DNA from: an uncultured Candidatus Saccharibacteria bacterium
Lineage (GTDB): Bacteria; Patescibacteriota; Saccharimonadia; Saccharimonadales; Saccharimonadaceae
Assembly (NCBI GenBank): GCA_947428935.1
Contig: CANENS010000003.1
Span: 1 to 64,000 of the forward strand
Length of the DNA: 64,000 nucleotides
Reading direction: 5' to 3'
Numbering within the stretch: position 1 is the first letter of the stretch; each line of letters opens with the position of its first letter. Both the position numbers and the translations under genes were made by a program. Under the pieces are notes generated by a model. The model saw only the letters and a program-made list of their open reading frames with translations. It had not been told where the DNA came from and did not search any database. Positions 2,310-62,899 of the stretch are shown one piece after another.

Positions 2310-2541
2310 ATACTACAGTATAACATGAAGTCTTAAATAAGCGTAGGCTTGTTTTTTCGAAAAAAAATGGAATTATACTTGCGCTTTAGCCAAACTTCAT
2401 ATATCCACAAAGAATTTGTTTTAATTAGTCGGGAGCCAACTTTTCTGAAAAAGCATTTTATTCATTTAAAAACACTTTAATTCTTAGGGCCTCTCAATAT
2501 AAATCTTGGATTGTTTTATCAATAATCGAGAGGGGCCCCTC

Positions 2542-2611
2542 GGGGCGTCGGTTCTAAAAAATTAAAACGAGTTCTTTTTTCACTCACCTCTTACCGAGGA
2601 CGAACCTATGC
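2542..2611 (-). ncRNA. Candidate structured RNA motif, copy 1
   Basis: Read on the minus strand, an outer stem GGTTC/GAACC encloses a CCTC...GAGG hairpin, a GTGAGTG segment and an A6...T6 hairpin. It is followed by GACGCCCCG. The element at about 34477-34543 shares the outer stem, the GGTA, the GTGAG and the trailing GACGCCCCG while its inner hairpin differs in sequence. That pattern fits a conserved RNA fold. Function and expression are unknown. Confidence 0.45.
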
Positions 2612-2664
2612 TGTTTTAATCCGCCTACAAAATAAAATAAAGTCCCAAAGGACTTATTTTATTT

Positions 2665-2682
2665 TGGTGAGTCGGGAGGGGC
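2665..2682 (-). repeat. Copy of the tRNA-Lys 3' end (att-like)
   Basis: Eighteen bases are identical to the last 18 bases of tRNA-Lys, including the encoded CCA, at 2849-2866. The copies are in direct orientation, exactly 184 bp apart. The rest of the tRNA is absent. Direct repeats of a tRNA 3' end are what integration of a mobile element into a tRNA gene leaves behind. Confidence 0.85.
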
Positions 2683-2807
2683 GCTAAAAAATCTAACGAT
2701 TTTTTATAAAAGCCTGCGTTTCCTTAAAAAAGAAAATAAATTTTCTTTTCACTCGGAAACTTGGCTTTGCGAACCACATGTTGATTCAGCCACCAAAGCA
2801 GCGAATA

Positions 2808-2848
2808 GAAATAAACAAACCTCCTGACGGAGGCTTCTTTATTTCTAT
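2808..2848 (-). terminator. Hairpin directly downstream of tRNA-Lys
   Basis: The arms AGAAATAAA/TTTATTTCT and CCTCC/GGAGG form a long hairpin ending at the CCA of the tRNA gene. It probably ends the tRNA transcript or guides 3' processing. Confidence 0.65.
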
Positions 2849-2924
2849 GGTGAGTCGGGAGGGGCTCGAACCCTCGACACCCTGCTTAAGAGGCAGGTGC
2901 TCTAACCAGCTGAGCTACCGACCC
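2849..2924 (-). tRNA. tRNA-Lys (CUU)
   Basis: A 76-nt cloverleaf with encoded CCA. The anticodon arm is CCTGC-CTCTTAA-GCAGG, giving anticodon CTT for AAG codons. The T arm (GGTTCGAGCC) and the 7-bp acceptor GGGTCGG/CCGACTC with one G-T pair are intact. Its 3' end is duplicated at 2665. Confidence 0.95.
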
Positions 2925-7332: not shown

Positions 7333-7522
7333 TTCGCAGCGGGAACATTAATATCAATAACGGTCGTTTGAGGAACTCTGGCATCAACGGTTACGGATGG
7401 TCTACGCGAGCTAATTCTTCTGATCTTCGTTATGCATACAACCTCAACTTCAATGCGTCTGGCGTCAACCCGTCCAACAACAACAATCGCTGGAACGGCT
7501 TTCCCCTCCGCTGCCTAGCTAG
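7333..7522 (+). repeat. Variable cassette C2, asparagine-rich (template-like)
   Basis: The encoded end reads RSGNININNGRLRNSG ... YNLNFNASGVNPSNNNNRWN. Nearly every position that varies among the other copies is AAC or AAT here. Its 3' end departs from the family right after CCTAGCTAG: it lacks ACAGTAATAAT and has TTTCCCC where nearly all others have TTCCCCC. A DGR template repeat is expected to be adenine-rich at the variable codons and to differ from targets at the 3' end. It lies between the structured RNA and a strong terminator, so it may be transcribed as RNA. No reverse transcriptase is nearby. Confidence 0.9.
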
Positions 7523-17902: not shown

Positions 17903-18093
17903 CTGTCTAGCTAGGCAGCGGAGGGGGAAAGCGTTATAGCGATTGCCGTTGAGGGCCGGGTAGACACCAGACGTATCGAAAGCGAGGTAGTATGCAGAAC
18001 GAACACCAGAACTAGCCCGTGATGACCAGTCATAATCGAAAATGCCGGAATTCCTCAAACGGCTCATGTTGATATTGATGAACCCGCTGCGAA
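17903..18093 (-). repeat. Variable cassette C5
   Basis: Intact ends. It encodes RSGFININMSRLRNSG ... YYLAFDTSGVYPALNG, then NRYNAFPLRC. In tandem upstream of C4 in the same orientation. It is open from RSG to the stop, with no upstream gene body. Confidence 0.93.
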
Positions 18094-18353
18094 AACTGGA
18101 GAAATCGAGAAAAAAGAAAGTTTACTTTCTTTTTTGAGGCGACGCTCAGTTTTCTAGATTTTTCTTTCAGAAAAATTTAGAGCAAAGAAGTAGCTGTAGA
18201 ACTTTCAAACGTTACAACGTCGAGAATAACACAAGCCATGATAGTAGTATCCTTCGTTATAACTTTTTGAAGAAAGACAAACCTGCGGCACGAAGCAGTC
18301 ACGTCTCCGGGGCAGAACTCCGAAAGACAAAACCCGAACAATAATTCAACACA
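18094..18353. other. Intergenic region with a long AT-rich hairpin
   Basis: AAAAAAGAAAGT/ACTTTCTTTTTT at 18112-18137 is a terminator-like hairpin able to act on both strands. The rest shows no gene. It separates cassette C5 from the end of the tlyA-like gene. Confidence 0.55.
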
Positions 18354-33717: not shown

Positions 33718-33793
33718 TATTTGTAAAAATATTTTTATTTCCAAAAACCGCAAAATACTACGCTTTTCTAATACAACCCAAAAAGGAAATTTA

Positions 33794-34444
33794 ATGAAAA
33801 AAGCAGCCAACGTTATTAATTATTATTGTCTTTGCAATCAACTGAAAAACCTCATTCGTACAGGTTGGAAAATTTGGCATGTCCAAGCAGACCGTCTGGA
33901 AAGCGTAGCTGAACATATCTTTAGCGCTCAAATGCTTGCTATCGCTATGCAATCAGAATACCAATATCAAATCGATCTCGAAAAAGTTATTTTGATGCTA
34001 GCCATCCACGACCTCGGCGAAATTATCATTGACGATTTAACTCAATTTGATATCTCTAAAACCGAAAAAACCAAAATCGAACATGTAGCAGTACATCAAA
34101 TTTTGCAAAATTTGTTAAATCAAGAAAAACTAGAAAAATTATTTTTGGAATACGATGCTCACGAAACCGCAGAGTCAAAATTCGCCTATCAATGCGACAA
34201 ACTAGACGGCGATCTCCAAAGTAAAATTTATTACGAAAATCATTATATCGACTTAGAACAGCAAGAAGGCAACCGAGTACTGAAAGATCCACAGGTAAGC
34301 AAATTATTTAATGCCGGCTACTCTTTCCCTGAAGCTTGGTTCAAATTCTCACAAAATAGCTATCATTACAACAAAAATTTTCTTTCCGTCTCGAATTACG
34401 CTATGACACACCAAATTTTATCACAAAATGGAGCCGTTGACTGA
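33794..34444 (+). CDS. HD-domain hydrolase (YfbR/HDDC2-like)
   Basis: About 216 residues. The metal site pattern is visible: H in RLESVAEHIFSA, HD in LAIHDLGE and a downstream D in YQCDKLDGD, as in 5'-deoxynucleotidases of the YfbR/HDDC2 group. Start is set at ATG 33794 (MKKAANVINYY) after AAGGAAA; the upstream frame to 33707 has no ribosome site. The last five codons (NGAVD, stop) are made of a copied tRNA-Thr 3' end (34429-34443), so the native C-terminus was probably replaced. Confidence 0.85.
   Translation: MKKAANVINYYCLCNQLKNLIRTGWKIWHVQADRLESVAEHIFSAQMLAIAMQSEYQYQIDLEKVILMLAIHDLGEIIIDDLTQFDISKTEKTKIEHVAVHQILQNLLNQEKLEKLFLEYDAHETAESKFAYQCDKLDGDLQSKIYYENHYIDLEQQEGNRVLKDPQVSKLFNAGYSFPEAWFKFSQNSYHYNKNFLSVSNYAMTHQILSQNGAVD
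34429..34443 (-). repeat. Copy of the tRNA-Thr 3' end (att-like)
   Basis: Fifteen bases identical to the 3' end of tRNA-Thr at 34613-34627, in direct orientation and exactly 184 bp apart, the same spacing as at tRNA-Lys. It forms the end of the HD-hydrolase gene. Confidence 0.85.
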
Positions 34445-34476
34445 AAACTTCGGCTCACTGCGTTCGCCTCAGCGAC

Positions 34477-34543
34477 GGGGCGTCGGTTCAAAAATTCTAA
34501 AATGAACTTTAGAATTTTCTCACACTCCTACCGTCTACGAACC
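34477..34543 (-). ncRNA. Candidate structured RNA motif, copy 2
   Basis: On the minus strand: GGTTCGTAGACGGTAGGAG, GTGAG, hairpin AAAATTCTAAA/TTTTAGAATTTT, GAACC, then GACGCCCCG. The outer stem and trailing sequence match the element at 2542-2611; the inner hairpin is different but preserved as a hairpin. Located downstream of tRNA-Thr inside the 184-bp unit. Confidence 0.45.
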
Positions 34544-34577
34544 AAAAACGATTCACGTTCGTTCCAAGAGGCAATCA

Positions 34578-34612
34578 TAAAACCCAACTTCTTAGAAGCT
34601 GGGTTTTATGAT
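34578..34612 (-). terminator. Hairpin directly downstream of tRNA-Thr
   Basis: CATAAAACCCA/TGGGTTTTATG arms with a short loop, ending at the CCA of the tRNA gene. Confidence 0.7.
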
Positions 34613-34688
34613 TGGAGCCGTTGACTGGGGTCGAACCAGCGACCTGCTCGTTACGAATGAGCTGCTCTGCCAACTGAGCTACAACGGC
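34613..34688 (-). tRNA. tRNA-Thr (CGU)
   Basis: A 76-nt cloverleaf with encoded CCA. The anticodon loop TTCGTAA gives anticodon CGT. The anticodon stem has an A-C mismatch at its loop-closing pair. Acceptor GCCGTTG/CAACGGC is perfect. Confidence 0.93.
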
Positions 34689-62735: not shown

Positions 62736-62899
62736 GTTAAAACAATCGCTATAATATGACGGATAAGTACCGGATGCGCCGAAGTATAGGTTATACGCAT
62801 AACTAACATTATCAGTATCTGTTCGATTTGACCAGCTGTAGTTTGCTATACCAGTTTCATTTAGATGCCCAGTCTTAGTAATAATACGCCCGCTGCGAA
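62706..62899 (-). repeat. Variable cassette C20
   Basis: Encodes RSGRIITKTGHLNETG ... YNLYFGASGTYPSYYS, then DCFNAFPLRCLARQ. One of the more diverged copies, AT-richer in its middle. Its leader runs to palindrome copy 8 at 62970. Confidence 0.92.

Follow-up and report, generated by a model that had tools for sequence, protein, structure and literature searches.

Why should the 3' end of a tRNA gene recur a short distance away and there supply the end of a protein-coding gene? The question is raised by a 64,000-nt stretch of DNA from an uncultured Candidatus Saccharibacteria bacterium (contig CANENS010000003.1, positions 1 to 64,000; here the window), in which TGGAGCCGTTGACTG occurs at 34613-34627, as the 3' end of a minus-strand tRNA-Thr(CGT) gene including the encoded CCA, and again at 34429-34443, at an offset of exactly 184. 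A preliminary description of the locus had placed this second 15-bp copy at the end of an HD-hydrolase gene, had reported the same 184-bp spacing at tRNA-Lys(CTT), and had proposed a single family of tiny elements with different tRNAs as targets. The exact match and its place in the gene end were found as described, and the idea of a family was borne out, since the Thr unit and the outer of two Lys units have a common structured core and the same anatomy recurs behind many further tRNAs, both in this bacterium and in other Saccharibacteria. The equal spacing, however, did not hold, as the Lys repeat is 18 bp long (2665-2682 and 2848-2865) with an offset of 183. The remaining four tRNA genes of the window have no comparable downstream copy of their 3' ends. 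On balance, the 184-bp segment probably belongs to a family of non-autonomous mobile cassettes whose insertion point is the tRNA T-loop and whose insertion yields a target-derived duplication of 17-18 bp, a reading that we hold with reservations.

The genome to which the window belongs comprises 1.10 Mb in 27 contigs and gives 45 tRNA matches, 44 of them distinct by ARAGORN. A downstream tail copy was scored where 15 or more of the final 17 bases of a tRNA are repeated within 40-420 bp downstream of it. Such copies follow nine of the 44 tRNAs, namely Ser(CGA), Ser(TGA), Ser(GGA), Lys(CTT), Lys(TTT), Val(TAC), Gln(TTG), Arg(GCG) and Thr(CGT), and 11 of the 44 when 13 of 17 bases suffice. Upstream, none of the 44 has a tail copy, and in a cross-tRNA control 9 of 1886 pairings reach the 15-base level, the ones listed being neighbouring tRNA genes or near-identical tails. 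In G195, another genome from the same taxonomic family (three contigs, 99% complete), tail copies follow 6 of 44 tRNAs at the stricter level and 9 of 44 at the looser one, with none upstream. A chance repeat is ruled out by these upstream and cross-tRNA controls in the two genomes. Tail copies occur behind 31 of 156 distinct tRNAs in a pooled, non-random set of loci, and different genomes have different tRNAs occupied. The family of units is almost certainly real.

Read from the CCA onward, a unit consists of a terminator-like hairpin of ~35-40 nt, an inverted copy of the T-arm, a GTA-like loop, the 5' half of the T-arm (GGTTCG), usually a core of ~60 nt, a third hairpin and the tail copy, after which comes either the old terminator or the next unit. 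Spacings are similar because this anatomy is fixed, but an exactly constant spacing is ruled out by the Lys value and by the wide range elsewhere: units measure about 75-358 bp, and the 28 core-containing units with good tails span 118-358 bp, most of them 168-193. The first base after the CCA varies among units. At six loci (L088, L203, L302, L313, L321 and L375), the core begins directly at the tRNA CCA, which in some of them forms part of stem1.

The duplication has sharp borders. When six core-less or other-core-type units are dropped from the 34 with good tails, leaving the 28 just mentioned, copy and tRNA match at 0.93-1.00 from position -17 to -1, at 0.75 at -18 and at 0.18 at -19, even though the tRNA base at -19 is A in 35 of 35 units of an earlier tally. 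Because the match falls so sharply at this point, the duplicated stretch is read from the alignments as 17-18 bp, tRNA positions 59-76 through the CCA, with one border inside the T-loop (58|59). The inverted arm is also specific to its host. In a 16-nt test, at least 12 of 16 positions match in 17 of 35 own hosts as against 18 of 1066 cross pairings, and the observed mean was reached in none of 5000 permutations; this test supersedes an earlier 10-nt test of the left arm (at least eight matches in 14 of 30 own and 44 of 748 cross pairings). Among the 26 of 50 units in which a simple rule recognises a GAAC..GTTC hairpin, the dinucleotide opposite tRNA positions 57-58, which adjoins the 58|59 border, is complementary in none and is GA in 15.

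At the Thr locus, the tail copy has altered a gene. The open reading frame (ORF; 33707/33791-34444) matches Pfam HD_3 (E 1.2e-26) and its product ends in ...ILSQNGAVD*, the final codons and the TGA lying inside the tail copy and its junction. When 60 genomes of the genus were searched, none of the seven with a close homologue had the same C-terminus. In one related genome (G001), tRNA-Thr(CGT) comes 62 bp after the same HD gene and has an ordinary terminator and no unit, so that this locus is an empty site. Because no homologue shares the C-terminus and the gene-tRNA order exists without a unit, the new HD C-terminus is a by-product of unit insertion.

Movement is best judged from near-identical units behind different hosts. 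The tRNA-Val units of two relatives (G006 and G018) are identical at 185 of 188 positions; one difference lies in the body, and the two in the tail are exactly the differences between the host acceptor stems (GGGTGAT/ATCACCC and GGGTTGT/ACAACCC), while the 300-bp flanks align at 53-54%, the level of unrelated DNA. In the genome of the window, the Lys(TTT) and Val(TAC) units agree at 94% over 175 bp, and their tails follow the hosts but for one mismatch. Since near-identical units in both comparisons bear the tails of their own hosts, the sequences favour a tail duplication derived from the target. G195 contains near-identical tandem units behind Ser(CGA) (118 bp, two copies) and Ser(GGA) (136 bp, about three copies), as well as a short-core class whose bodies resemble one another behind four tRNAs (two Ser, two Gln). 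The outer tails of the Ser(GGA) and Lys(CTT) arrays in the genome of the window are degenerate. At the level of sequence, then, the family is marked by a fixed anatomy, sharp host-specific tails, a host-specific inverted T-arm, tails that follow the host, and tandem copies, and it is quite likely to be mobile with a target-derived duplication.

It may be asked whether any dedicated system is needed, or whether the units are remnants of ordinary tRNA-integrated islands or of palindrome-driven replication errors at tRNA 3' ends. Palindromes invite template switching, and the core-less units of 75-109 bp contain little beyond direct and inverted T-arm copies. However, units of similar length with the same core stand behind many tRNAs in many species, tandem copies are near-identical, and the two Val units agree almost throughout between species amid unrelated flanks, so that this explanation is highly improbable.

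The core has the layout stem1-TAGGA-stem2-GAGN-stem3-...-GACGCC-stem1'. A model of it, R1, was built from six copies of the window's own genome, with the Thr core, which was misplaced in the alignment used (A1), and the Gly(tcc) and Tyr cores left out. In an alignment of 48 distinct sequences from other genomes, which was fitted to the model and is thus biased in its favour, all 15 pairs are changed on both sides and 94.9% of cells pair; the covariation score was reached by none of 500 shuffles. G.T/G.U pairs account for 11 of 665 pairs in the core, whereas the acceptor and T stems of the tRNAs in the genome of the window have 39 among 527; as the sequences are related, the P value of this comparison is indicative only. 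The scarcity of such pairs therefore points to folding of the core as DNA rather than as RNA. Folded as DNA, a unit at locus L159 gives z values of -7.7 and -8.6.

A covarying core, and a unit common to Leu(GAG) of two species with 94% identity over 141 bp, could also belong to a functional structured RNA downstream of tRNA genes, a trailer or regulator kept by selection and not mobile. In the window, Rfam at the gathering score matches tRNAs only, and at E up to 5 nine loci yield, besides tRNAs, weak sub-threshold matches, none over the units at family threshold; a known RNA family is rejected for lack of a match over the unit at the gathering score. A structured RNA is also difficult to reconcile with the low G.U content, with the terminator-like hairpin that precedes the rest of the unit, with the differing sets of occupied tRNAs, and with the cores that lie upstream of promoters and beside gene fragments. 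This alternative is very unlikely.

Some stretches between tail copies contain genes. There are three such loci: 912 bp with a 142-aa ORF that has no Pfam match (L095), 1197 bp in which a 323-aa ORF is accompanied by a tail that matches at 15/17 (L307), and, in L159, a stretch of 2252 bp that encodes proteins with NERD and G5 domains as well as a tRNA-Arg, followed by one of 4272 bp with SbcC and SbcD (L159:2519-6790) between two tail copies of a tRNA-anchored array. SbcC and SbcD are a nuclease pair that cuts hairpins and palindromes. No integrase is among the Pfam matches in these gene-bearing stretches. Their flanking copies suggest that they moved as cassettes.

What enzyme might be responsible was approached through protein families. 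RVT_1 has no matches in the genome of the window, the one searched for it, which rules out a retroelement or group II intron. Y1 transposases match in just 2 of 40 genus genomes, and with this distribution and the presence of a duplication, an IS200/IS605 or REP/RAYT mechanism is ruled out as well. The genome of the window has a broken Y1 transposase with an in-frame TAG (G000:C8:52024-52364; L273, L276).

A tyrosine recombinase would offer a different account of the tails. In this scheme, the enzyme acts site-specifically at the T-loop on a folded single-stranded site, and a circle bearing its own tRNA 3' end recombines so that the crossover renews the tail and the old tail moves outward. The arrangement of a bulged hairpin between two inverted, target-like arms resembles the forked CTX phage attP(+) and the folded attC described in PMC3089051 and PMC4792948, respectively; strand folding in the L159 unit is strong, and 37 of 40 genus genomes have an Xer-like recombinase. 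However, the G006/G018 and Lys/Val units have the host's tail on both sides, with a mixed picture in G010, and Phage_integrase has no match in G028 and G006 (97% and 79% complete drafts), although both contain perfect units. Extra integrases were found in 20 loci, none of them in a tail-flanked tRNA insertion, which rules these out as carriers. A tyrosine recombinase is rather unlikely. Separately, small tyrosine recombinases with neighbours that look Firmicutes-like by eye occur on contig G000:C21 and at the end of C4 (L112, L113, L114), perhaps as a contaminant or recent acquisition, and a 364-aa Phage_integrase protein with an unusual N-terminus (G000:C13:5939-6442; L111, L277) has no tRNA in the surrounding 11 kb.

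The array polarity, and a duplication that starts in the T-loop, could instead reflect integration by a casposase or similar Cas1 protein, which would read the T-loop as a leader and insert a donor at the tRNA 3' end with target duplication, the arrays growing outward like those of CRISPR. According to PMC6614799, the Aciduliprofundum boonei casposase recognises TCAAATC, 8 bp upstream of its 14-bp duplication, and we read this motif as T-loop sequence; here the 17-18-bp duplication itself begins in the T-loop. Cas1 is present in the genome of the window (G000:C9:43447-44049; L330), but in just 6 of 40 genus genomes in all, and not in G006, G018 or G028. The unit ends lack terminal inverted repeats, the base following the CCA is variable, and the inverted T-arm and core are left unexplained. 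Cas1-like integration is thus distinctly unlikely.

We return to the reading of the units as mobile cassettes. A cassette would insert at the T-loop of a tRNA gene, with tRNA positions 59-76 duplicated from the target, and the hairpin after the CCA could serve as the new tRNA terminator. The inverted T-arm copy would pair with tRNA positions 51-56 and again from 59 onward, so that 57-58 stay unpaired next to 58|59, and may in this way pick the target. One strand, comprising the arms, core and third hairpin, would fold into a form recognised by a trans-acting enzyme. New units would enter beside the tRNA and push older ones outward, where outer tails would decay, and some cassettes would carry genes. 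That the inverted arm acts as a guide, and the form in which a strand serves as intermediate, are what we infer; a guide-like, folded arm is quite possible, if short of probable. A more specific scheme is a doubtful but conceivable extension, in which tRNA-anchored arrays of empty or gene-bearing cassettes form a new mobile system. The arm would act as a guide that can pair with the T-arm to either side of the point of insertion, apart from a constant 2-nt mismatch at 57-58, and a change of arm would lead to another tRNA. It would pair with its own copy in the donor or with the tRNA in the target, the enzyme would cut at 58|59 and after the CCA, and repair would duplicate 59-76 such that the tRNA survives.

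Several points weigh against mobile cassettes with a target-derived tail. The simple rule for hairpin H1 leaves out 24 of 50 units, including most of those in the window's own genome and, among these, the Thr unit, which has a degenerate inverted arm and a tail match of just 15 bp. The Lys(TTT) tail has its one mismatch, and a tRNA-Val in genome G010 has a G018-type tail behind a G006-type tRNA, which would need a later change in the tRNA gene. Tails that look target-derived could also arise by gene conversion between tail copies. Neither an excised circle nor a donor molecule nor polymorphism within a species was seen, and among the families searched (RVT_1, Y1, Cas1 and Phage_integrase), none fits all carriers.

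At E <= 0.1, the core model R1 matches 30 of 36 genus genomes and, among 24 genomes from other families of the order, 7, one of the latter better than 1e-4; at 1e-4, 23 of 197 genomes of the order match (12 of the same genus, 10 of the same family and one other). Fourteen of 20 further R1 matches from relatives are close to a tRNA gene, and tail copies matching at 15/17 or better accompany 11 tRNAs in 10 loci. A pattern scan of GTDB contigs gave at least 118 stretches, of which 80 were listed as loci and 24 of these taken as Saccharibacteria, 23 by title together with L175 (titled 'uncultured bacterium'); the others, mostly from other, often GC-rich organisms, were taken as chance. One genus locus (L081) is identical to one in a named Saccharibacteria record (L157) over the stretch compared. 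Four pattern matches in viral contigs were likewise taken as chance (GC 0.60-0.72, no core context by eye), and a stricter pattern gave none there. In plasmids, only the tRNA part of the query was matched among the 20 matches listed.

Cores also occur away from tRNAs, in the genome of the window (22 places read) beside promoterless protein-module fragments and at other intergenic sites, and upstream of dnaK-like genes in relatives (gene and promoter names assigned by eye). At five loci (L081, L082, L083, L087 and L091), the core and third hairpin lie just upstream of promoter-like TTGACA boxes, and three of these precede dnaK-like or CIRCE-like sequences, again named by eye. In L097 and L100 (genomes G033 and G013), the core lies inside longer inverted repeats, with several similar-scoring copies in G013, and such loci may represent a MITE-like subtype of the core.

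Table 1. Coordinates of the tRNA-associated units and related features in the window.
Feature	Position	Strand	Basis
tRNA-Thr(CGT), target gene; 3' end (34613-34627) is the proximal repeat copy	34613..34688	-	ARAGORN; Rfam tRNA, 60.7 bits
Whole Thr unit, 184 bp, read in tRNA direction	34429..34612	-	Repeat borders; comparison with other units
Near-perfect hairpin directly after CCA, probable tRNA terminator from unit	34574..34612	-	Unit fold, sequence
Hairpin H1 ending GGTTCG (T-arm 5' half); inverted T-arm copy degenerate here	34537..34562	-	Fold; no clear left arm scored
Folded family core of Thr unit	34474..34535	-	R1 E 1.7e-7 at 34473-34536; family covariation
Third hairpin region, core to tail	34444..34473	-	Sequence, fold
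Distal tRNA-Thr 3'-end copy (tail); HD gene end on plus strand	34429..34443	-	Exact 15-bp match; C-terminus
HD-domain hydrolase gene, last codons and stop from tail copy; ORF open from 33707	33791..34444	+	Pfam HD_3
tRNA-Lys(CTT), second target in window	2848..2924	-	ARAGORN
Inner Lys unit, 183 bp, tail copy at 2665-2682	2665..2847	-	Repeat; partial R1 match at 2716-2757
Outer, older Lys unit, tail degenerate, outer border approximate; core at 2538-2599	2518..2664	-	R1 E 7.3e-19
Core copy not behind a tRNA, adjoining a promoterless protein-module fragment	18093..18152	+	R1 E 2.4e-13, sequence

The window also contains 15 dispersed promoterless fragments that start with RSG, most of which end in FPLRCLARQ and two of which run into an early end. 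They lie on the plus strand at 7335, 16770, 32325, 46681, 46906, 47737, 49907, 51333, 51817, 56030 and 58553, and on the minus strand at 62897, 62672, 18091 and 17869. By eye, they resemble variant C-terminal protein modules of a FISUMP-like kind. Some are N-rich like a diversity-generating template, yet this genome has no RVT_1 match.

The units of these small, parasitic gut bacteria look like mobile DNA of a family not described before, one that leaves its tRNA intact on insertion. Searches of the open PMC literature brought up no paper that names such an element, which is no proof of absence as most subscription papers lie outside it. If the reading is correct, tRNA-seeking DNA of a widespread and hitherto unlisted class is present in Saccharibacteria and can build gene arrays behind unharmed tRNA genes, and the units could show how these reduced genomes gain genes. 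The enzyme, in that case an integrase, would be directed to tRNA genes by a sequence in its substrate. The units give sharp predictions in the T-loop border at 58|59, the match of arm and target, and the target-derived tail.

Among known systems, REP/RAYT, MITE-like and Rickettsia palindromic elements are similarly short, palindromic, non-autonomous and dispersed, and can alter gene ends, but the units target tRNA 3' ends with host-specific arms, and Y1 is, as noted, rare in the genus. Integron cassettes, with their folded attC, are likewise small and tandem, some with one or two genes, and have a folded imperfect palindrome at the end; the units differ in being anchored at a tRNA gene with a host-derived duplication and in being mostly gene-free. 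The attC R boxes have the consensus RYYYAAC/GTTRRRY, and none was noticed by eye in the units, which were not searched systematically. Tyrosine-integrase tRNA islands and satellites share the identity block through the tRNA 3' end and CCA (17-18 bp here) and tandem accretion. Unlike them, the units are ~180 bp, have their border at 58|59 in the T-loop and an apparently target-derived tail, and contain no integrase gene, for which their length leaves too little room. CTX-phage attP(+) and other Xer-exploiting elements (PMC3089051) likewise have, on a single strand, a forked hairpin set between two inverted, target-like arms, although the target of the units is a tRNA T-arm and not dif, their tail is a target-like duplication, and they carry no phage genes. 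Casposons of the Aciduliprofundum boonei type (PMC6614799) resemble the units in their tRNA 3'-end target, their short target duplication and the importance of the T-loop region. The units, however, duplicate 17-18 bp rather than 14, contain neither a Cas1 gene nor terminal inverted repeats, and combine a folded core with an inverted T-arm that is internal and pairs with the tail.
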